Shown in pieces: positions 9,378 through 40,440 of a DNA stretch of 64,000 nucleotides. Every line of letters begins with the position of its first letter. Within the stretch, counting starts at the first letter, position 1. Below the pieces are notes generated by a model. That model did no database searches, was not told the DNA's origin, and saw only the letters and a list, made by a program, of their open reading frames with translations. Source of the stretch: Pseudomonadota bacterium (GTDB lineage: Bacteria > Desulfobacterota > Desulfobulbia > Desulfobulbales > Desulfurivibrionaceae); assembly GCA_018830485.1 (NCBI GenBank), contig JAHJRQ010000006.1, positions 1 through 64,000 on the forward strand, read 5' to 3'. Position numbers and translations under genes: made by a program.

Positions 9378-9887
9378 TTACCGGGCGCCGTCATTTTTAT
9401 AGAGCCCCGCAAAGATTTCGCGCAACAATCGTTCGTCAATCCTTGCCATCAGACGTTCTTCATATTCATCTTTTTCCGGTTCCGCCTCGGCGGACGGTTC
9501 CGGCTGGAGATGATTTTCCGCTCCTGCCGGAGGCACGGGCACGGAGTCGATTTCGTCCTGATAGTCCCGATTGTTTTCTATCCAGCGCTGGCAGTCGTCG
9601 TGGCTGCCGATGTAGGCAAAGATCAGCCGTCTTTCCCTTTTCAGGGCGATGAGCCGGAATCCGCAGGAAAGATCGTACTTGCGGCAGTCATTGAGGCGCA
9701 ACTCGCCGTGGCGGGTGCGTTTGCATTCCGCCTCCTCGTGCAGGGGGTTGGTTTGCAGATCGGCGATAATCCTTTGTGCCCGTTCGGCCACGATGCGCTC
9801 ATTCTTGCCGGCCTTGGCCATGGCCACCAGCCGCTTGGCAAACCTCCGGGTTTGGTGAACCTCCAAGAGCATCTTTTCCATGCTCAT
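9378..9887 (-). CDS. RelE-fold-like protein coupled to the activase gene
   Basis: Residues 1-110 of this 169-aa protein read like a RelE/ParE-type fold: a helical N-terminus, a strand RHGELRLND, then CGFRLIALKRERRLIFAYIGSHDDCQRWI, as in toxin-superfamily proteins annotated near YafQ/RelE. The last 60 residues are an acidic, charged extension unusual for toxins. No antitoxin gene is beside it. Instead its ATG overlaps the stop of the dehydratase-type activase by four bases, so it is translated with the redox cluster. Either a stand-alone nuclease-like protein or a non-toxic derivative is possible. Confidence 0.6.
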   Translation of the reverse strand: MSMEKMLLEVHQTRRFAKRLVAMAKAGKNERIVAERAQRIIADLQTNPLHEEAECKRTRHGELRLNDCRKYDLSCGFRLIALKRERRLIFAYIGSHDDCQRWIENNRDYQDEIDSVPVPPAGAENHLQPEPSAEAEPEKDEYEERLMARIDERLLREIFAGLYKNDGAR

Positions 9888-10624
9888 ATCCCTGTCCCGT
9901 GCAGGGCCGCGCCCAGGGCGCCGGTGATGTCCGGCAGCTCCGGCACCAGCACCCTGGGCAATCTTTTTTCGAGCAGCTCCACCATGCAGGGGTTGCGCGC
10001 CACCCCGCCGGAAAAGGCGACCGGATCGCCATGCCCGAGCCGGGCCAGCATCCCGGCCAGGCGGTCGGCCACCGAGGAGTGCACCGCCCTGGCGATCCGG
10101 TCACGGGCAATACCCCGGTTCTTCATGGAGATCACCTCGGACTCGGCGAATACCGTGCACATGGAGTTGATCAGCACCTCTTGGTCGGCGGTAAGCGCGG
10201 CCCGGCCGAACTCCTCCAGGGTGTAGGCCAGGGAAGCGGCCATGATCTCCAGAAATCGCCCGGTGCCCGCGGCGCATTTGTCGTTCATCTGGAAATTGCT
10301 TACCCGGCCCGCCGCATCCAAACTGATCACCTTGGAGTCCTGGCCACCCACATCGACAATGGTGGCGCAACCGGGAAACTCATGGAAAATGCCGCGGGCG
10401 TGCGCCTTGATCTCGGTGATCACCGCATCGGCGAAATGCCCGGCAGCCAGATGCCTGCCGTAGCCGGTGGCCACCACGACCTTGGCGCGGTAATCGGCGA
10501 TCATCTTCTCCGCCTGGCGATGCGGCTCGAAACCCGACGGCTCGATCCGGTGCTCCACCAGCCGCTCTCCGTCCCAGACCGCCATTTTGACGGTCCGGGA
10601 GCCCAGATCAACTCCGATGTACAT
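9884..10624 (-). CDS. ATP-dependent activase of the HgdC/BadF family (DCCP reductase-like)
   Basis: The 246-aa ASKHA ATPase starts MYIGVDLGSRTVK (phosphate loop) and has VDVGGQDSKVI and SGGVARNPCMVELL for nucleotide binding. The two cysteines that hold the subunit-bridging [4Fe-4S] cluster are present in NDKCAAGTGRFLE and SMCTVFAESE. Such proteins are homodimers that use ATP hydrolysis to push a low-potential electron onto a partner Fe-S protein. The partner is almost certainly the HgdB-like protein encoded two bases upstream. The closest characterised pairs of this single-plus-single type are the double-cubane cluster protein and its reductase, and E. coli YjiM/YjiL. Confidence 0.92.
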   Translation of the reverse strand: MYIGVDLGSRTVKMAVWDGERLVEHRIEPSGFEPHRQAEKMIADYRAKVVVATGYGRHLAAGHFADAVITEIKAHARGIFHEFPGCATIVDVGGQDSKVISLDAAGRVSNFQMNDKCAAGTGRFLEIMAASLAYTLEEFGRAALTADQEVLINSMCTVFAESEVISMKNRGIARDRIARAVHSSVADRLAGMLARLGHGDPVAFSGGVARNPCMVELLEKRLPRVLVPELPDITGALGAALHGTGI

Positions 10625-10626
10625 GC

Positions 10627-11916
10627 TTAGCCCCCGATCTGCTCAAGGAAGGCCTCGATCCGGGTCTGGAGTTGGCCGATATCCTCGGGGGAGTAATCCG
10701 ATTCGATGGAGAGATAGGGAATCCCCTCCCGCTGACAAGCCTCGCGGATTTTAATCTCCTCGATGTTATAGGTGTGGCAGAACTGCAGCGAGTAGTGGAG
10801 GATGCCCTGAGCGGCTGAGTCCTTATACTCCTGCAATACCTGGGTTACCCGCTCGTCATTGGGGGTGAAGCAAGAACAGTCGATCCGCATGTAGCGGTCG
10901 GTGAGAGCGGCCAATTGCTCATCCATTTCCTGACTGCCCTCGGTGATGCAATCCTTGAAATAGCGGGTGCCGATGCAGGACTCCTCGCCCACGATAACCG
11001 CGCCGGCGCTTTCCACCAGGTTGTGGATCTTCCAGTTGGGCAGGGCCATGGGGGTGCCGGAAACCATCACCCGCAGGGCCTCCGGGGGGAAAGCGCCTTC
11101 GCCGTTGGCAATCCGGTCATCCAGTTCATCGCACAGCTCGTTGACCTTGGCCGCAAAACGGACGGGCTCATCGTAAAAGGCGATTTGCTCGATGAGCAGC
11201 GCATCCTTGCCGCTGATGGGGGCGGGGCTTGCCGCCCTAAGCCTGGTGAGGCGCTGCAATGCCAGCCGCTTGCCGTTGATGATCTTGATGGCCTCGGCCA
11301 GTTGCCCGGAGCTGATGGTCTTGCCGCTGACCTCCTCGATCTTGGCCTTGAAGTCCTTGACCTCCTCCAGCCACAGGACGCGGTCCCGTTCTTTCTTCAT
11401 CTGGGGGATTTCCATGACGTAGGTCGGCACCAGACGGTCGAGGATCTCCCAGGTCTTTTTCTTGGCATCGCAGGTCGTCTCGCCATAGACGAAATCCACT
11501 GCCTGGAAATAGGGGCAGATGCGCCCCGCCTTGAAGCCGAAGGCCGATTTGACCATGGGGCAGATATTGCGGGGCAGGATTTTTTCCGCGTCCGGGACCG
11601 AGCCCTGGGAGCCGCCGCACAGTCCGACGCAGACTCCGTCCGCCGCCACCACGATCTCTTCCGGGATATAGACGCAGAAGGTGCCGACCACCGGCCGTCC
11701 TTCCTTCTTGGCCTGCATCAACTCCTCTACCCGCCCGCCGAAGATTTCCGAAATCATTTTGTCGAAGTAGGCCATTTTTTGTGGGCGGTTGGCCTGGGAC
11801 AGAAAAGTTTTGGCATAGGCCGTACCCAGCATCTGCCGGGCCTTGTCGAAACGCTCCAGGTCCATGTCAAGTTCGCGCCATAGTTCGGGATAGGCCTGTA
11901 TCTCAAAGTCTTGCAT
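10627..11916 (-). CDS. 2-hydroxyacyl-CoA dehydratase D-component family protein (HgdB/DCCP-like)
   Basis: This 429-aa protein belongs to the HgdB/BcrC family. Candidate cluster ligands are GVCVGLCGG, RNICPMVKS, RICPYFQ, GETTCDAKK, ESCIGTRY, DCSCFTPN and FCHTYNIEE. True dehydratases and benzoyl-CoA reductases need two related large subunits; here there is only one, next to one activase. That is the arrangement of double-cubane [8Fe-9S] cluster proteins, which reduce small molecules such as acetylene in vitro and whose natural substrate is unknown. I start at the ATG at 11914-11916, preceded by AAGGAGACATT, rather than at an in-frame ATG 54 bases upstream. Substrate here cannot be read from sequence. 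Confidence 0.88.
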   Translation of the reverse strand: MQDFEIQAYPELWRELDMDLERFDKARQMLGTAYAKTFLSQANRPQKMAYFDKMISEIFGGRVEELMQAKKEGRPVVGTFCVYIPEEIVVAADGVCVGLCGGSQGSVPDAEKILPRNICPMVKSAFGFKAGRICPYFQAVDFVYGETTCDAKKKTWEILDRLVPTYVMEIPQMKKERDRVLWLEEVKDFKAKIEEVSGKTISSGQLAEAIKIINGKRLALQRLTRLRAASPAPISGKDALLIEQIAFYDEPVRFAAKVNELCDELDDRIANGEGAFPPEALRVMVSGTPMALPNWKIHNLVESAGAVIVGEESCIGTRYFKDCITEGSQEMDEQLAALTDRYMRIDCSCFTPNDERVTQVLQEYKDSAAQGILHYSLQFCHTYNIEEIKIREACQREGIPYLSIESDYSPEDIGQLQTRIEAFLEQIGG

Positions 11917-11994
11917 AATGTCTCCTTGTTGTTCTGTTCCGTTGTTGTCTTCTCTCGGGGCTACAACCATATCCAGGCAGGGGTGTGACGCCTG

Positions 11995-30499: not shown

Positions 30500-30643
30500 G
30501 TTCGACCACTGGTGGCCGGACGCCTTTGCATTAATTCCGTGGACAATTAAGGATGATGGCCCAAAACCCTTGGTTTTATACGAGGGGGCGGCTCCAGAAC
30601 GGGGCTGTTGAACATAATAAATATATTGATGGGGGAGGACGCA

Positions 30644-31954
30644 ATGGCAATGTCGAATCGTTGTGCAACGCACCTGGCGCAAAAAAAGAATTTTTCAACG
30701 AACAAAATTTCAATCCTATTCTGGGTGTTCCTTGTTTCGGGAGGGAGCTTTCCGTACTCTGCCATGGCGGCAACCTGCCCCAGCGACAAGGAAAAGGAGG
30801 AAGTAACATGTCCGGACGTTCATTCCAACAACCCTACCTTTTTGTTTGCCCACGGGCTTAACGGCAACCCGGGAGAATGGCAACATTTTGCCGACAGGGT
30901 AAGGGCTCAAGGATTCGGGGTATGGAGAACGCAGCTTGATCATGCTCGCGGTCATATTTCGGAGCGAGGCGATCAGCTTGCTGCATTTATCGGATCTGCA
31001 GCGCAAAAATGCAACACGAAACCGAAGAGTGTCATTGCGGTAGGTCATAGTATGGGAGGTCTGGATCTACGTTATATTGTCGGACGATCCCAGGATGCAG
31101 CTGGCAGAGTCTACACAAAAGCAACGGATTTAATCAGATCGGTCTACACCATTGCCACCCCGCATCTCGGCGATCCCAATGCTTGCGCAGCTCCGGGCGG
31201 GACACATGACCTATGCGGCCACGTAACGGATAACAGTGCGGAAGAGTCGCCCATGAAAAGATTCAACCAGGCATACCCCGCGTCAGACTTCGCCGAACTT
31301 AGGATAAACTTTATGGCTATTTTCTATGAATGTCCTGGGAAGGAGAGGGGAGAGGATGGCGTAGTGCTTCTTGATTCACAAAAATGGCTCGGAGCCTGGC
31401 CCACTAAGGAAGAAGCGCAACGCCATATGCATGATGGAGGTAAAGGATATCACAAAAACAAGACGGATGATGGCTGTAGAGAAAAATACGGCTGTCTGCC
31501 AGAGCTATGCCAGGATGAAGAAATTGACGGGATTATGAGTATTGAAGGCACAAGGCGGAACTTTGACCAGCATGCGAAAATACTGTTCTATAAGAAAAAC
31601 GAATGCAAAGATGATCCGATTGGAGAGATGCGGTTAAACTACAGTAGGACGTATTGTAGTAATGGTATTGCCTCATGTGATTTGCCTTTCAAAAATGACG
31701 AGGCGCGTTCCATGAGGCTGGTCCAGGTTAAAAAAGGGACACAAGTAAACATTTATAATAGTCCAAATTGTAGTGATGATGACGATTATAGTGTCGTAGA
31801 GATGAAAAAAGATGTCGAAGGTTGCATAGATTCTTTTGAGGAAAAATTGGATAATGATAAAATAAATCTCTCTTTTCATAAAAATGGAGTGGCGATGAAT
31901 CATCTTGATGGCAAGGTATCATGTGTGAAGGCCATGGTGCCAAAGCCTTACTGA
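30644..31954 (+). CDS. Secreted lipase/esterase-like alpha/beta hydrolase
   Basis: The 436-aa protein has a signal peptide (hydrophobic ILFWVFLVSGGS, cut near AMAA) and an alpha/beta-hydrolase domain: FLFAHGLNGNPGEW oxyanion region, the serine elbow VGHSMGGLDLRY, and a likely IATPHLGD. About a dozen cysteines in the mature part suggest disulfides. The second half has no recognised domain. Start ATG at 30644 follows GGGAGGACGC. The 3' third is visibly richer in A/T and uses codons such as AAA, ATA and AAT unlike its neighbours, which suggests acquisition by transfer. The gene ends at a terminator next to tRNA-Cys. Confidence 0.82.
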   Translation: MAMSNRCATHLAQKKNFSTNKISILFWVFLVSGGSFPYSAMAATCPSDKEKEEVTCPDVHSNNPTFLFAHGLNGNPGEWQHFADRVRAQGFGVWRTQLDHARGHISERGDQLAAFIGSAAQKCNTKPKSVIAVGHSMGGLDLRYIVGRSQDAAGRVYTKATDLIRSVYTIATPHLGDPNACAAPGGTHDLCGHVTDNSAEESPMKRFNQAYPASDFAELRINFMAIFYECPGKERGEDGVVLLDSQKWLGAWPTKEEAQRHMHDGGKGYHKNKTDDGCREKYGCLPELCQDEEIDGIMSIEGTRRNFDQHAKILFYKKNECKDDPIGEMRLNYSRTYCSNGIASCDLPFKNDEARSMRLVQVKKGTQVNIYNSPNCSDDDDYSVVEMKKDVEGCIDSFEEKLDNDKINLSFHKNGVAMNHLDGKVSCVKAMVPKPY

Positions 31955-34170: not shown

Positions 34171-34467
34171 CCGCAAAACCAAAACAAGTATTGCCTTTGC
34201 TCACATTTTCAGCAACGTAAGTGGCTGAAAATGACGGGGCGTCCTTGCCCCGCACAGGAGCCTTGAATTTTTCAAGGCTCCCTCAATTCCAAATCAAAAG
34301 AGGTTCTTTAAAAATTCCCTCCCCCCCGGGGGGAAGGGTCAGGGAGAGGGGAAACAGCCATGACCTCGGCAGGTTGCAGCTTCACCCACCCCTAGCCCCT
34401 TGTCAAGGGAGGGGAGCTTTTTTCACCGGACGAGCTCCTTGATTTAGCGCTTGATTTAGAACTGGAA
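34171..34467. other. Non-coding region with serial hairpins
   Basis: Further short palindromes follow one another: ATTTTCAGC/GCTGAAAAT, GGGGC/GCCCC, and GAGCCTTGAA/TTCAAGGCTC. They precede a C/G-tract block at about 34314-34345 (TCCCCC-type against GGGGGA-type arms). I see no open frame with a start and ribosome site here. Confidence 0.5.
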
Positions 34468-34656
34468 TCAGGTCGAGGGCTTCTTGGCGCTAAAAAGCTG
34501 GCAGTGGATCCCGGAGCTGGCAAAGACCACCACGGCCGGATACTGGAGGGACTTAAACTCCAAAGCCCTGCAGCCGTATGGGTGCTGTGGTTCGTGGGTG
34601 ATGTAGAAATGGAGGCAGGCCAGGCAGTTTGGCCGTTTTGTGGTAGGCAGAGGCAT
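34468..34656 (-). CDS. Small conserved Cys-containing protein
   Basis: The 62-aa product has NCLACLHFYITHE, then PYGCRALEF and GIHCQLF: a CxxC pair plus two later cysteines, suggesting a zinc site. The HFYITxxPxxPxGCxAxxFKS pattern occurs in a small family common in proteobacteria and often mislabelled. Start ATG at 34654-34656 follows GAGGTG. It lies ten bases downstream of the second activase gene and probably belongs to that operon. Confidence 0.7.
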   Translation of the reverse strand: MPLPTTKRPNCLACLHFYITHEPQHPYGCRALEFKSLQYPAVVVFASSGIHCQLFSAKKPST

Positions 34657-34666
34657 CGGGTTCACC

Positions 34667-35335
34667 TCAGGAAACAGGCGGGGGGCTGGGGTGGTGCGCC
34701 TCGGCCTCGAGGCCGCGCAAAAGAACAAAGCGGCCCAGGGCAGTGACCTGGCAGGGAAAGCTGCCCACGAAAAGAGGGTTGTCGCACAATCCGCCGGAGA
34801 GATAGAGCTTGGCAGGCGAACCGGCAAAGCGGTAGGCGTTGATGGCAATCCCCTTGACAAAGCGGGCCACCGCCTCGGCCACCTCCACCCCGGAGATCAC
34901 CGCATCGAAGATGTCGCTCATCCCCAAGACCCCGCAGGTTACGGAAAAAGTCTGCTCCGGCACCCGCAGACGGGTATAGTCCAGCTCGTAGTACCGCTCC
35001 AGAAGCTCGATGGTGAAGCCCATCGAGGCCCCGCATTCCGCGTTCCAGCCCATGTCCGCCAGCTTGCCGTTTGCATACCTGATGAACTTGATATCCCGGC
35101 TGCCGCAATCGAGCAGCACATATTCATCTTCCTCGATCAAGGCCTCGCCGCCCCTGGCCAGGGCAATGAGTTCGTTGACATAGCGGTCGGCGAACCGTTT
35201 GCCGTTGTGGCCGGTGGCCAGATCCACCCGCGTCTCCCTGGGCAGCTCCTTGGTGGCGATGATGGCAGGCTTGGCCCCGGGCGCGTCGAGGTCGAGAAAT
35301 TTGCAGTAGGAGGTGCCGAAGTCGCCCAGGATCAT
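34667..35335 (-). CDS. Second BadF/HgdC-family activase (short form)
   Basis: This 222-aa ASKHA ATPase begins MILGDFGTSYCKFLDLD (variant phosphate loop) and has LLDCGSRDIKFI and YLSGGLCDNPLF for nucleotide binding. The two cysteines expected to bridge a [4Fe-4S] cluster across the dimer are kept, in NAECGASMGF and FSVTCGVLGMSD. It is shorter than the 246-aa activase at 9884-10624 and diverged from it. It overlaps the upstream 259-aa gene by four bases, so that protein is the expected electron-accepting partner. No HgdB/BcrC-type subunit is adjacent. Confidence 0.82.
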   Translation of the reverse strand: MILGDFGTSYCKFLDLDAPGAKPAIIATKELPRETRVDLATGHNGKRFADRYVNELIALARGGEALIEEDEYVLLDCGSRDIKFIRYANGKLADMGWNAECGASMGFTIELLERYYELDYTRLRVPEQTFSVTCGVLGMSDIFDAVISGVEVAEAVARFVKGIAINAYRFAGSPAKLYLSGGLCDNPLFVGSFPCQVTALGRFVLLRGLEAEAHHPSPPPVS

Positions 35336-36111
35336 GGCCGCACCCCGGAAAGTTCGAGAAAGGCCTGGACCTTGGCCCGGGCGCTGCTGGTGGTGTGCAC
35401 ATCCACATCCAGGTAGAGGGCGTGGGGATGTTTTTTCGCCAGATAGCGGGCCAGCGCGGTTTTCGCGCAAAAGGACTGGGCAAAGAAAACCGTGGGCACC
35501 TCGGGGTTGAACTGGGCCTCCAGCGCGTGGTCGGCCGGGGTCTTGTTTTCCATGCAGCGGGCCCAGCCATGGATGTGGGTGGTGTCCGGGAACAGCCCGA
35601 GGATGGAGAAATCCCTGGGCGGCACCCCCCAGAAAGCGGCGGTGGGCGTACAGGGATCCGGTGGATTCTGGCAGGGGGCCGCGGATTTGACCCCGGCGGT
35701 GATGGCCAGCATCCGGTCGATGAGGGGCAGCCGGGCTTGGCAGAGTGGGGTGCCGCAGGCAACGGTGTCCGTGTTTTTGGTGCAGATCACCGGAATGGGC
35801 AGGGCCTCGGCCAGGATCGTGGCCGTGTGCAGGGCGCAGTCGCACTTGCCCGGGCCGGTGTCCGCGTAGATGGCGTCGAGCTCCAGGTGCAGGGCGTTGA
35901 CCACGGCGGTGCGGAGGATGGCGCAGTACACCCGGGGCAGGTAGGGGCTGGCGGTTTCGAGATCCTCCCGGACCAGGGGCTCGTCCAGATCATGGATAAC
36001 CAGGCCGTGTTCGTTGGCCCCCCGGATTATCTCCAGGGGCGGAACGCCGATGATGCCGATCTTGCGGAAGCGGCTCAGTATGGCGACTGAAGATGCGGGA
36101 TCGAGGGTCAT
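35332..36111 (-). CDS. Unfamiliar Cys-rich protein coupled to the activase
   Basis: The 259-aa soluble protein is not one I recognise. About ten cysteines are present: RVYCAIL, GKCDCALH, VICTKN, VACGTPLCQ, APCQNPPDPC, ARCMEN and SFCAKT. The stretch LDAIYADTGPGKCDC and the closing LYLDVDVHTTSSARAK have alternating strands and turns as in an alpha/beta fold. Four-base overlap with the activase suggests a one-to-one complex in which the activase reduces Fe-S centres bound here. It could be a remote HgdB/BcrC relative that has lost family motifs, or a separate family. Substrate unknown. Confidence 0.6.
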   Translation of the reverse strand: MTLDPASSVAILSRFRKIGIIGVPPLEIIRGANEHGLVIHDLDEPLVREDLETASPYLPRVYCAILRTAVVNALHLELDAIYADTGPGKCDCALHTATILAEALPIPVICTKNTDTVACGTPLCQARLPLIDRMLAITAGVKSAAPCQNPPDPCTPTAAFWGVPPRDFSILGLFPDTTHIHGWARCMENKTPADHALEAQFNPEVPTVFFAQSFCAKTALARYLAKKHPHALYLDVDVHTTSSARAKVQAFLELSGVRP

Positions 36112-36151
36112 ATTTTTAGGGTGTTACTGGTTGATGGATGTGCAACAACGG

Positions 36152-36260
36152 CCATTCGACAAGGCTCTCCTGAGCGAAGTTGAAGGGCTCAGGGTGAACG
36201 GATATCGTCTTAACGTACTGATATTCCGTTCGTACGGAGCTTGTCGAAGCACCTGTTCGT
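36152..36260. repeat. REP-like palindromic repeat, copy 2
   Basis: This block (CATTCGACAAGGCTCTCC... to GTCGAAGCACCTGTTCG) matches 27326-27423 over several segments in the same order. The arms TTCGACAA and TTGTCGAA are inverted repeats. It fills most of the gap between the 259-aa gene and lptG. Confidence 0.75.
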
Positions 36261-36291
36261 TTGCGGCAAATTGCGACTTTGTGCGACGCCA

Positions 36292-37368
36292 TCACTGGTT
36301 ATATTTTTTCAGCAAAAAGCAGCCAATACCGATGGTCAACACATGGATGGACCAGGAGGCGATGCCCGGCGGCAGGGTGGCGGTTTTGGCCAGGGACTGG
36401 GTGGCGCTCCAACCGCCCCAGGCGGCAAAGGCCAGGCCGCAGCTCACCGGGATGGCCAGGGCCAGATCGCGTCCCTTGTTTTTATGCACCGCGAGCAGTA
36501 CCGGAATTCCCAGCAGGAGCAGGGGGATGCCCAGGAAGGCGTAGGAGAAGCGGCGGTGGAATTCCACCCGCGACTCATGGTGGGAAGCCTTGCTGTCCAT
36601 GGCCTGCCGCAGGAGCTTGCTGTATGAGATTTCCTCTATTTTGTATGGGGGGACAAAGAATTCTTCCGGCGCTTCGGCAAAGGCAGGGGTGAGGGTCTGG
36701 AAAAGCGTTACGGAAAAGGCGCCATTGTCGGTGCGGTTTTTCTGCTGGCCGTTTGTGAGCTGCCAGGCTCCGTCTGCCCAGGTGGCGCTTTCGGCGGTGA
36801 GCAGGGTTGTCAGGCCGCGCTCTCCGTCATAGGCGGCAAAGGAGAAGTTGAGGAACTCGTTTTTTCCGGGAGTGGGGCGGACAAAGGAGAAAATTCCCTC
36901 GGTGCCGCGAAAATAGGTGCGGCCATCCCGGATGATGCCCTTGGGGATCTGGCGGTTGACCTCCTCGTACCAGATCCGGTTGGTGGCCGCGGTGGTGGCG
37001 GGCAGCACCCATTGGCCGATGACAAGGGTAAGCAGGGTGAAGAGGGCTGCCGCGACCAGCAGGGGGCGGATGATGCGGATAACGCTGATCCCGCTGGCCA
37101 TGAGGGCCATGAATTCAAAATGCTGGTTGAGGATGCCCAGGGTGATGACCCCGGCCAGCAGGATGCAGACCGGGATCAGCTGGACATACATGAACGGCAG
37201 CTTGAGCAGCAGGTATTTGATTGCCAGTCCGACGCTCTTTTTCGCCTCCAGGAAATTGTCTACCCGCTCGAAGAAATCGACCAGCAGATAGATGGCGATC
37301 AGGGAGCAGATGACCAGGGCCAGGTTCTTGGCGAACTGGGCCATGAGGTAACGGTCCAGCAGCTTCAT
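36292..37368 (-). CDS. lptG: LptG lipopolysaccharide export permease
   Basis: The 358-aa protein has the LptF/LptG layout: three N-terminal membrane helices, a periplasmic beta-jellyroll-like part (residues ~100-255), and three C-terminal helices. The N-terminus MKLLDRYLMAQFAKNLA and the block FEFMALMASGISVIRIIRPLL (coupling helix) are typical. With LptF and LptB it extracts LPS from the inner membrane. It overlaps lptF by four bases. Confidence 0.93.
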   Translation of the reverse strand: MKLLDRYLMAQFAKNLALVICSLIAIYLLVDFFERVDNFLEAKKSVGLAIKYLLLKLPFMYVQLIPVCILLAGVITLGILNQHFEFMALMASGISVIRIIRPLLVAAALFTLLTLVIGQWVLPATTAATNRIWYEEVNRQIPKGIIRDGRTYFRGTEGIFSFVRPTPGKNEFLNFSFAAYDGERGLTTLLTAESATWADGAWQLTNGQQKNRTDNGAFSVTLFQTLTPAFAEAPEEFFVPPYKIEEISYSKLLRQAMDSKASHHESRVEFHRRFSYAFLGIPLLLLGIPVLLAVHKNKGRDLALAIPVSCGLAFAAWGGWSATQSLAKTATLPPGIASWSIHVLTIGIGCFLLKKYNQ

Positions 37369-38558
37369 GGCCGTTTTTCTCCGTTTTTGATTCCCGGCAG
37401 CCTGGCCAGCAGGGCAAGGGCCGTATCGCTCAACCGGGCAAGGAAGAGCGGGGTGATTTCCCGTGCCACCTGACGGGTGAGCATAATGGTGAAAAGAGCG
37501 ATCAGGATATTGGCGAGCCAGATGCCGGCCGCCACGGGCAGATGGCCGCTTTCGGCAATGGTCCGGCCCGCGGTGAACAGGATGTAGTAGATGACAAAAA
37601 GCAGCAGGCCAAGCGGCACGCCCAGCGGCCTGCGTCCGGGTCTGGCCAGCATGGCAAGGGGCAGCCCCAGGATGGTCAGGATGAAGCCGCCCACCGGCAG
37701 GGCCATGCGGGTATGATACTCGATGAGCATGCTCAGGCCGAGGGGACTTTTCGGGCCATGGGTTGCCACCTGTTCCAGCAACTGTTTCTGGTTCAGGCCG
37801 TTCTTGCCGACCTCGGTAACGGAGGTGCCGCCGATTTCCGTCGGCGTCTTGATGGGCAGGTTGACCTGATAGCGGTCAAAGCGAATGGTTTGGGTGATAT
37901 CCTTGCTGGCGCGGTGCAGGGTGCCGTCCGCCAGGGTAAGGCTGATCAGCATGTTTTCCGGCTGGGCGGTGAGGGTGCCGGTTTTGGCGACAATGGTGAG
38001 AGGCGCGTCGCCGTGGCGCATGTCGGAAACGTACACCCCCTGCCATTGCCGGGTTTGCGGATCCACCGCATCGACATACAGCACCACATTGGAGATGCCT
38101 TCACTGAACTGTCCGGGCTGGATGCCCTTGTCGATCTTTTCCTTGGCCATCTGCAGAAAAAGCGATTTCATGGCCAGGGTGCCCTGGGGGATAAGGGTGA
38201 CCGCGGAAAAATAGGTGAGCAGGGAGGTGGATAGGGCGATGACAATCACCGGGGGCAGCAGGCGAACCAGGCCGATACCAGTGGCCTTGAGGGCCATGAT
38301 CTCGTTGTCGTTCACCATTCGGGTCATGGCGACGATGACCGCGGTCATGCTGGCCATGGGGATGGAAAACATCATCAGCTTGGGCAGCATGTAGGCGCAG
38401 AGGCGCAGGAAGTCGCCGGCGCCGACGCCGAAATCGAAGATCACGTTGAGCAGGGGGACAAGCCTGCCCAGAAAGAGGATGGCGTTGATGATGAGAAAGC
38501 TGGCGAAGAACGGGGCCAAAATCTCGGTGGCGATATAGATGTAAAGCAATACGGGCAT
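37365..38558 (-). CDS. lptF: LptF lipopolysaccharide export permease
   Basis: The 397-aa permease shares the same architecture as LptG and includes NDNEIMALKATGIGLVRLL (coupling helix) and MALPVGGFILTILGLPLAM. The ATG at 38556-38558 is where homology should begin, but the sequence in front of it is a repeat element (38561-38674) with no ribosome site. The frame is open through that element up to an ATG at 38636, so the true start may lie inside it. Confidence 0.92.
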   Translation of the reverse strand: MPVLLYIYIATEILAPFFASFLIINAILFLGRLVPLLNVIFDFGVGAGDFLRLCAYMLPKLMMFSIPMASMTAVIVAMTRMVNDNEIMALKATGIGLVRLLPPVIVIALSTSLLTYFSAVTLIPQGTLAMKSLFLQMAKEKIDKGIQPGQFSEGISNVVLYVDAVDPQTRQWQGVYVSDMRHGDAPLTIVAKTGTLTAQPENMLISLTLADGTLHRASKDITQTIRFDRYQVNLPIKTPTEIGGTSVTEVGKNGLNQKQLLEQVATHGPKSPLGLSMLIEYHTRMALPVGGFILTILGLPLAMLARPGRRPLGVPLGLLLFVIYYILFTAGRTIAESGHLPVAAGIWLANILIALFTIMLTRQVAREITPLFLARLSDTALALLARLPGIKNGEKRP

Positions 38559-38560
38559 GT

Positions 38561-38674
38561 TGTAACTGTCCAGTATTCTTTGTTGTCGGCCTGAACGCAT
38601 ACCGATGGATAGAGCTCTCGGGCCTCTGTCGCGCATATGCGGCAGCAGCGAAGCGGCGCTGCTGAACAGTTACA
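38561..38674. repeat. 114-bp hairpin element abutting lptF
   Basis: TGTAACTGTCCAG and CTGAACAGTTACA form 12-of-13 terminal inverted repeats around a GC-rich, internally paired centre (GCAGCAG/CTGCTG, GGCCTC/GAGGCC). It ends two bases before the lptF ATG. It resembles 41589-41694 in size, outer arms and an inner GTTGTC-GGCC segment. Confidence 0.65.
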
Positions 38675-38889: not shown

Positions 38890-40440
38890 ATGCTGAACCC
38901 TCTGGTGCGCGCCATTGCGGTTGCCGCGCCTCTTCCCAGCCTTGGCGACAACACCGGCGATCTCGACCGGTTGAAAAAGGCCCTTGCCCCGCGGTTGGAT
39001 GGGGCCATGCCGGTGGTGCCGTACAAGCGTTTGAGCAAGGTGGCTGGCCGGTTCCGCGCCGCAGGCTTTGCGGGCGCGGCCATTATCAATGACATGGCCG
39101 GCCCCCCGGTTCTGGTCGATTTCCTCCCCCAGCCGCCAAAGGTTTTGGCCGGGATGGCCCTTGACCTGGGGACCACCCATCTCGAAGCAACCCTGCTTGA
39201 TCTGGGCGCCGGCGCAGTCCTGGCCCGGGCGGATCTGGAAAACGGCCAGATCCGCTTCGGGGCCGATATCCTTACCCGGATCCACCATGCCGCCAAGGAC
39301 GAAGGGCTTGCAGAGCTGCACGCGGCGATAATCGATTCGGTCAATCAACTGGCGACGGAGCTGGCCGGGCGTGCCGGCCTTGCGGCGGTCTCCGAGATCC
39401 GGGCGCTGTCGGTGTCCGGCAATACCAGCATGGTGCATTTTTTCCTTAAACTCAATCCCAGCCATCTCTGCCGCGAGCCATACATCCCCATGGTCAACGC
39501 CCCGGATCCCTGTCTGGCCGGAGAATTGAAGCTGGCCATCCACCCGGCCGCGGTGGTCTGGCTTCTGCCCAGTGTGGGCAGCTATTTCGGCGGCGATCTG
39601 ATTTCCGGCGTGCTGGCCAGCGGGCTTGACCAGCAACCGGAAACCTGCATGCTCATCGACGTGGGCACCAATGCCGAAGTGATTGTCGGCAACCGGGAGT
39701 GGCTCATCGCCTGCGCCGGGGCGGCAGGTCCGGCCCTGGAAGGCGGCGTGGCCCGAATGGGCATGCGGGCTGGGCCCGGCGCCATCGAGCATGTGCGGAT
39801 CGATCCGGCCACAGGCAAAATCGGCTATGAGACCATTGGCAAGGGAAAGCCCAAGGGACTCTGCGGCTCCGGGCTCATCGATCTGGTGGCCGAGCTCTAT
39901 CTGACCCGGCGGATCGATATCCGGGGCAAGTTCCGTCCCCAGGCCGCCGGAGAGCGGCTGATTGCGGGAAGCGAAGGCTGCCGGTTCGTGGTGGTGGAGG
40001 GCAAGGATGCGGCGGATGGCCGGCCCGTGGCGCTGGGGCAGGTGGATCTCGACGCGCTCATGCGCTCCAAGGCGGCCATGTACGCCATCCTCACCACCCT
40101 GACCAATCAGGTGGGGGTTGCCTTTGAGGATCTGCACCGCATCTATGTGGCCGGGGCATTTGGCCGGCATATCTCTCCTCGGCATGCCATTGTCCTGGGG
40201 ATGCTGCCTGATCTGCCCCTTGCCACCTACGAGCCCGTGGGCAACAGCTCCCTGGCCGGGGCCCAGCGGGTACTTCTTGAGCGCCAGGCCCGGGAACGCA
40301 GCCTTGCCCTGGCCGGAAAAATCACCTACATCGAGTTGAACGTGAACCAGGAGTTCATGCTCCGGTTTTCCGGCTCCCGTTTTATTCCCCACACCGATCA
40401 CGCCTTGTTTCCTTCGGTTCCTTTTTTTGACGGGGAATAG
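38890..40440 (+). CDS. RACo-like ASKHA-domain protein without N-terminal ferredoxin domain
   Basis: The 516-aa protein matches the DUF4445/RACo C-terminal ATPase: GMALDLGTTHLEATLLDL (phosphate loop), SVSGNTSMVHFFL, CMLIDVGTNAEVIVGN, LCGSGLIDLVAELYL and YVAGAFGRHIS. RACo uses ATP to reduce corrinoid proteins back to Co(I). Usual members have an N-terminal [2Fe-2S] domain with four cysteines; here the first ~85 residues have none, so the electron source must be separate. No corrinoid protein or methyltransferase is adjacent. It diverges from lptF. Confidence 0.82.
   Translation: MLNPLVRAIAVAAPLPSLGDNTGDLDRLKKALAPRLDGAMPVVPYKRLSKVAGRFRAAGFAGAAIINDMAGPPVLVDFLPQPPKVLAGMALDLGTTHLEATLLDLGAGAVLARADLENGQIRFGADILTRIHHAAKDEGLAELHAAIIDSVNQLATELAGRAGLAAVSEIRALSVSGNTSMVHFFLKLNPSHLCREPYIPMVNAPDPCLAGELKLAIHPAAVVWLLPSVGSYFGGDLISGVLASGLDQQPETCMLIDVGTNAEVIVGNREWLIACAGAAGPALEGGVARMGMRAGPGAIEHVRIDPATGKIGYETIGKGKPKGLCGSGLIDLVAELYLTRRIDIRGKFRPQAAGERLIAGSEGCRFVVVEGKDAADGRPVALGQVDLDALMRSKAAMYAILTTLTNQVGVAFEDLHRIYVAGAFGRHISPRHAIVLGMLPDLPLATYEPVGNSSLAGAQRVLLERQARERSLALAGKITYIELNVNQEFMLRFSGSRFIPHTDHALFPSVPFFDGE

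Follow-up and report, generated by a model that had tools for sequence, protein, structure and literature searches.

Known ATP-driven reductases and a compact two-gene locus

Few electrons in biology are as strongly reducing as those provided by ATP-driven transfer of the type carried out by the benzoyl-CoA reductase I/2-hydroxyacyl-CoA dehydratase/double-cubane cluster protein (BCR-I/HAD/DCCP) reductases. Several described systems lie close to the locus reported here. In DCCP:DCCP-R (PDB 6eno, 7yyl, 7yzm; NF040772), one reductase protein and one activase form a two-gene pair; the solved reductase chains are ~420 aa long and hold six cluster cysteines. The 2-hydroxyisocaproyl-CoA dehydratase HadBC (PDB 3o3m-3o3o) is a heterodimer of homologous subunits that handles a CoA thioester. 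The class I benzoyl-CoA reductases BzdNO and MbdON (PDB 8s02, 9g87, 9gai) likewise have two subunits and a CoA substrate. According to the accessible sections of one account, the [8Fe-9S] cluster of BzdN is held by Cys36/73/100/263/293/327, the catalytic [4Fe-4S] cluster of BzdO has three cysteine ligands, a helical domain helps to form the CoA channel in proteins of the superfamily, acetylene, azide and hydrazine are substrates of DCCP, and no function is yet established for the archetypal double-cubane proteins (PMC11971306). The superfamily also has a shortened member, the desulfidase TudS (DUF523), which the accessible sections of two papers describe as a one-domain protein with a three-cysteine cluster (PMC11971306, PMC10611767).

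We analyzed a locus on the minus strand of the window, by which we mean the whole 64,000-nucleotide stretch of DNA examined. Protein A (35332..36111; 259 aa) is a putative reductase component with a compact HgdB/BcrC/DCCP fold, and protein B (34667..35335; 222 aa) is a short activase with an ASKHA fold, the putative cognate ATPase of A. The stop codon of A and the ATG of B share four bases. Downstream of B lies the gene for protein C (34468-34656, minus strand), 62 aa long with four invariant cysteines (CxxC...PYGC...C). A first-pass annotation, made from the sequence by itself, had described a 259-aa protein with about ten cysteines that overlaps a short activase by four bases and is followed by a small CxxC protein. 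The coordinates of A and B agree with that description, A contains ten cysteines in total, and the 62-aa protein is present as described.

Are A and B real genes? Of 58 relatives, the window's own genome counted, 53 carry A, mostly at 57-96% identity. Comparison with six congeners gives dN/dS values of 0.19-0.26 (A) and 0.10-0.19 (B). Given this presence among relatives and these low ratios, we conclude that A and B are real genes under purifying selection. Among the 58 relatives, one has two copies of A and in another A is split into two pieces. A scan of positions 34300-36400 against the promoter consensus returned no promoter.

Fold and cysteines of the two proteins

The first-pass annotation had been unable to place the 259-aa protein and had proposed a profile search and a structural comparison with HgdB/BcrC. 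The profile search found a relative, at a score below the threshold: the sole Pfam match of A at E<=1 is HGD-D (PF06050), over residues 49-111 (E 0.0049; 16.9 bits against a cut-off of 28.4), and the same sub-threshold match recurs in two alignments of A, for 7 of 15 members in one and 13 of 41 in the other. NCBIfam yielded no model at E<=10, NF040772 included, and TudS/DUF523 was absent from the matches in Pfam (E<=1) and NCBIfam. Neither A nor B scored above cut-off with models of class I benzoyl-CoA reductase subunits. With A alone, phmmer matched only a thioredoxin (E 0.13). Profile A1 of the family found nothing in the PDB, and profile A4 found a single weak match, 3o3m_B (E 0.16), which covers the stretch containing C63 and C90. 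Aligning profiles A4 and A5 with hhalign gave a weak result (E 0.062, probability 0.9%) that placed C63 and C90 as in the MAFFT merge described below; in global mode, hhalign produced nothing usable. A thus scores above cut-off in no Pfam or NCBIfam model, and the A-B pair is so far unnamed.

Sequence evidence for A being weak by itself, its family placement rests on the predicted fold together with the positions of its cysteines. The model of A (pLDDT 92.3) consists of two alpha/beta domains, the pair that flanks the cluster in the superfamily. When this model was compared with the PDB (search VIA), the ten best matches were HadBC, DCCP, MbdON and BzdNO chains, at Z 10.9-14.2 over 230-238 of the 259 residues; the range was 13.2-14.2 for DCCP and 13.6-14.1 for BzdNO/MbdON, and HadBC reached 14.2. 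The first chain from outside the superfamily followed at Z 7.7 over 93 residues. Foldseek at E<=0.001 returned only four matches: DCCP, MbdON (twice) and BzdNO. As modeled, A is a shortened HgdB/BcrC/DCCP-fold protein of the BCR-I/HAD/DCCP superfamily. The structural comparison therefore places the protein that had seemed unplaceable, and nothing in these searches matched it to an enzyme without a redox center, the outcome that the first-pass annotation had named as fatal to its reading.

The same annotation had stated that no HgdB/BcrC-type protein occurs here. This does not hold for the locus, since A itself has the predicted fold, nor for the window, which carries a canonical pair on the minus strand at 9884-11970. 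This pair consists of a DCCP (10627-11970), which scores 483 bits with NF040772 (cut-off 350), and an adjoining activase (9884-10624). The latter is probably the first activase that the annotation implied when it called B the second.

Using MAFFT, we merged an alignment of 41 A rows with one of 23 canonical HGD-D rows taken from relatives, leaving the alignment within each group unchanged. In this merge A aligns with four, rather than six, of the cluster cysteines of double-cubane proteins; the codons of the four in A are on the minus strand. Cys63 (VYCAILRT; codon 35923..35925) aligns with DCCP C120 as the first cysteine of the proximal sub-cluster, Cys90 (GPGKCD; 35842..35844) with C150 as the second, and Cys215 (QSFCAKTA; 35467..35469) with C381 as the third. 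Cys186 (RCMENK; 35554..35556) aligns with C315, a cysteine of the distal sub-cluster. These four are the only invariant cysteines of A, each seen in 101 of 102 rows; the one exception is a gap in a fragment. Their counterparts in the window's DCCP (C120, C150, C315 and C381) are all invariant among the canonical HGD-D rows. By order and spacing, A would appear to keep the three proximal ligands and one of the three distal ones. A would then be expected to carry one cubane-type cluster, possibly with the fourth cysteine as an additional ligand.

A also differs from the solved proteins in what lies between its two domains. The middle helical domain is absent from A: the merge has a long gap there, and the secondary structure of the model contains no helical bundle. 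The chain is far shorter than the solved DCCP chains, and it is also smaller than the BzdNO/MbdON subunits. HAD is built from two homologous subunits, whereas the A-B system has a single gene in their place and lacks the helical domain that receives the CoA tail. With this part of the CoA channel missing, CoA binding of the usual mode should not be expected, and the substrate of A is unlikely to be a CoA thioester. Polar residues that neighbor the cysteines in sequence (K89, D167, R185, E188, N189 and K217) are conserved, which suggests that A may have a small-substrate pocket of its own.

B matches known activases, at scores below the curated thresholds: 42.8 bits with TIGR00241 (cut-off 125.4) and 16.9 bits with Pfam BcrAD_BadFG (cut-off 31.5). 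Searching with phmmer matched solved activases with E values down to 2e-7. The model of B (pLDDT 93.1) is most similar to the DCCP activase 7yyl_E and to MbdQ, 9gba_D (both Z 21.2), followed by the HAD activators at 19.1-19.2 (1hux_A, 19.1), with pantothenate kinases at 16.7 and below. The predicted structure gives B an ASKHA activase fold in a chain some 20-50 residues shorter than the solved activase chains among the matches listed (243-268 residues). The first-pass annotation had noted that the short activase keeps its cluster cysteines, and the alignment bears this out: Cys101 (ECGASMG; codon 35033..35035, minus strand) and Cys134 (TCGVLG; 34934..34936, minus strand) are each conserved in every one of the 45 B rows and in all 27 canonical activases. 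Two further cysteines of B, C195 (45/45 B rows) and C184 (43/45), are absent from the 27 canonical activases. The annotation had also pointed to the activase-linked marker families of methanogens. B has no match to methanogenesis marker 15 (TIGR03286); at E<=1 only TIGR00241 and TIGR03192 appeared.

Linkage, distribution and neighbors

We probed the reach of the pair beyond its phylum with two close peptide patterns. These matched 188 relatives, and gene order was read from the best 80 of them, all from named organisms. In 79 of these 80 loci B comes after A on the same strand, the exception lying at a contig end, and the two genes overlap or stand within 21 bases of each other in 71 of the 79. 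The best 80 of 188 come, among others, from Desulfobulbus, Desulfocapsa, Desulfoprunum, Desulfurivibrio and Candidatus Electronema. Within the phylum, A occurs in 26 of 394 sampled genomes. The B subfamily (E<1e-100) was found in 15 of 197 sampled genomes, and all 15 are among the 26 that bear A; two much weaker B matches in the 197-genome sample (E 7.7e-13 and 3.5e-11) fall in the range expected of other activases.

Outside Desulfobulbales, in the same phylum, A-B is present in two small lineages, f28 (5 of 5 genomes of its order) and f50 (8 of 8 genomes), where A is 35-39% identical to the A of the window. No relative of A was found on plasmids or viral contigs at the limits used. Plasmids gave one weak match to B, and their matches to the canonical activase led to nothing connected with A.

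Does B depend on a canonical partner? Canonical HGD-D proteins (E<=1e-5) are missing from 27 of the 58 relatives, and all 27 carry A. B therefore cannot depend on a canonical partner and would serve A, subject to the incompleteness of many of these genomes. The five relatives without A all have an HGD-D protein, which could hint that such a protein substitutes for A where A is absent, though a set of five, at 60-100% completeness, is too small for a firmer statement. One genome of the same order, G055 (100% complete), has one HGD-D protein but neither A nor B nor any RACo_C_ter protein, which makes it a natural case for asking what replaces A-B.

The surroundings of the pair vary between lineages. 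Upstream of A in the window lie two genes that we take to be lptF and lptG (36292-38636), and beyond them, on the plus strand and three genes from A-B, a RACo/AcsV-like corrinoid-activation ATPase (38890-40440). The latter has no N-terminal [2Fe-2S] domain, its model match beginning at position 130 of 632. A block of glgC-DHH-RACo-lptG-lptF-A-B is partly conserved across most Desulfobulbales loci; in 91 such loci we counted A in 91, B in 90, lptF in 73, RACo in 55 and C in 40. Other genes surround A-B in the f28 and f50 loci listed, a gene that we take to be lysS in f28 and metallo-beta-lactamase-fold genes in f50. Among the loci listed, no third gene stands beside A-B in all three lineages, and none offers a hint to the substrate. 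Nor does a second HGD-D-type subunit gene stand beside B in these loci; its only such neighbor is A.

The first-pass annotation had counted the small CxxC protein as part of the system. Protein C matches no Pfam or NCBIfam model, occurs in 56 of 197 phylum genomes, many more than bear A and most of them without it, and adjoins A-B in 40 of the 91 loci. We conclude that C is a bystander.

A-B is near-universal in its order, which suggests a core or housekeeping role. The pair is minimal, mostly single-copy, and kept in nearly all sampled Desulfobulbales, even in those without a canonical protein; its retention would imply that these sulfur-cycling bacteria have a basic requirement for one reduction of this type. 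Being simple, the pair also lends itself to asking what the double-cubane fold does without a CoA site.

Proposed working of A-B and its alternatives

We propose that A-B is a dedicated two-component ATP-driven reductase, a minimal form of the BCR-I/HAD/DCCP systems, and we put the probability of this reading at about 0.78. It builds on the genes, the predicted folds, the cysteines and the co-occurrence described above, and like DCCP:DCCP-R the pair joins one reductase-type protein to one activase. The proposed working extends to the clusters, ATP hydrolysis, electron transfer and class of substrate. On the pattern of the solved DCCP:DCCP-R system, two copies of B would bind a [4Fe-4S] cluster at their interface by way of C101 and C134, and the dimer would be reduced by a ferredoxin or flavodoxin. 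Binding and hydrolyzing ATP, B would then pass a low-potential electron to the iron-sulfur cluster of A, whose ligands would be C63, C90 and C215, with C186 as a possible fourth. A would in turn reduce its substrate, probably something other than a CoA thioester.

The first-pass annotation had suggested an undescribed ATP-driven reductase pair. What stands is a dedicated, unnamed pair of activase and partner; the view of that partner as foreign to HgdB/BcrC does not, and its action as a reductase is what we infer. Judged from the models, the pair is probably a new, compact version of the ATP-driven reductases of the BCR-I/HAD/DCCP superfamily and not a new kind of enzyme. We found no published account of such a pair in the literature searched, though the DCCP papers or the review may hold one.

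A bolder version, which we offer tentatively and at less than even odds, would make A-B the smallest ATP-driven reductase of the radical type so far known. It would represent a third trimming of the double-cubane fold, in which both alpha/beta domains are kept, the distal sub-cluster is lost along with the helical CoA domain, and one distal cysteine survives as a fourth ligand. Such an enzyme might carry out an undescribed, essential low-potential reduction of a non-CoA substrate or a metal cofactor throughout Desulfobulbales, including the cable bacteria.

Might A deliver electrons instead of reducing a substrate of its own? Charged by B, it could reductively activate another low-potential metal center, such as the one in a corrinoid protein, in a pathway to which the syntenic RACo/AcsV-like ATPase would also belong. 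This is unlikely, yet it is the most serious of the alternatives. The short RACo-like gene stands three genes off, in a block conserved at 55 of 91 loci, the short form also occurs in both f28 genomes searched, and the core distribution of A fits a maintenance role. However, neither of the two f50 genomes searched, both with A-B, has any RACo_C_ter protein, and in G036, which has A-B, the sole RACo lies 380 kb distant. RACo as a fixed partner of A-B is therefore not supported. Between these two uses of the electron, a small substrate of A's own seems somewhat more likely than the activation of another metalloprotein.

The hosts of A-B live by sulfur metabolism. This fits the idea that A acts on sulfur by non-radical chemistry, using a [4Fe-5S]-type cluster in the manner of TudS, with B only preparing the cluster, and TudS, like A, is a shortened protein. 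We consider the idea improbable. A has two alpha/beta domains where TudS has one, and its sequence matches no TudS model. Moreover, A is paired with an ATPase gene, whereas the activity of TudS is redox-independent in the accessible text of one paper (PMC10611767), and the accessible sections of two mention no activase partner for it (PMC11971306, PMC10611767).

More improbable still is that A is degenerate and cluster-less, so that A-B would be a signaling or scaffold module. The short length and the missing helical domain would agree with decay, but the only cysteines that A holds invariant are precisely the four at cluster positions, and its dN/dS is low. Last, a canonical DCCP does lie within the window, but the idea that B is its activase, with A as a regulator or chaperone, is scarcely credible: that DCCP has its own adjoining activase, 27 of the 58 relatives have A and no HGD-D match, and B always sits with A.

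Elsewhere in the window, on the plus strand at 30608-31954, a 448-aa open reading frame with a GHSMGG motif and a signal-like N-terminus has, by eye, the look of a secreted lipase or esterase.
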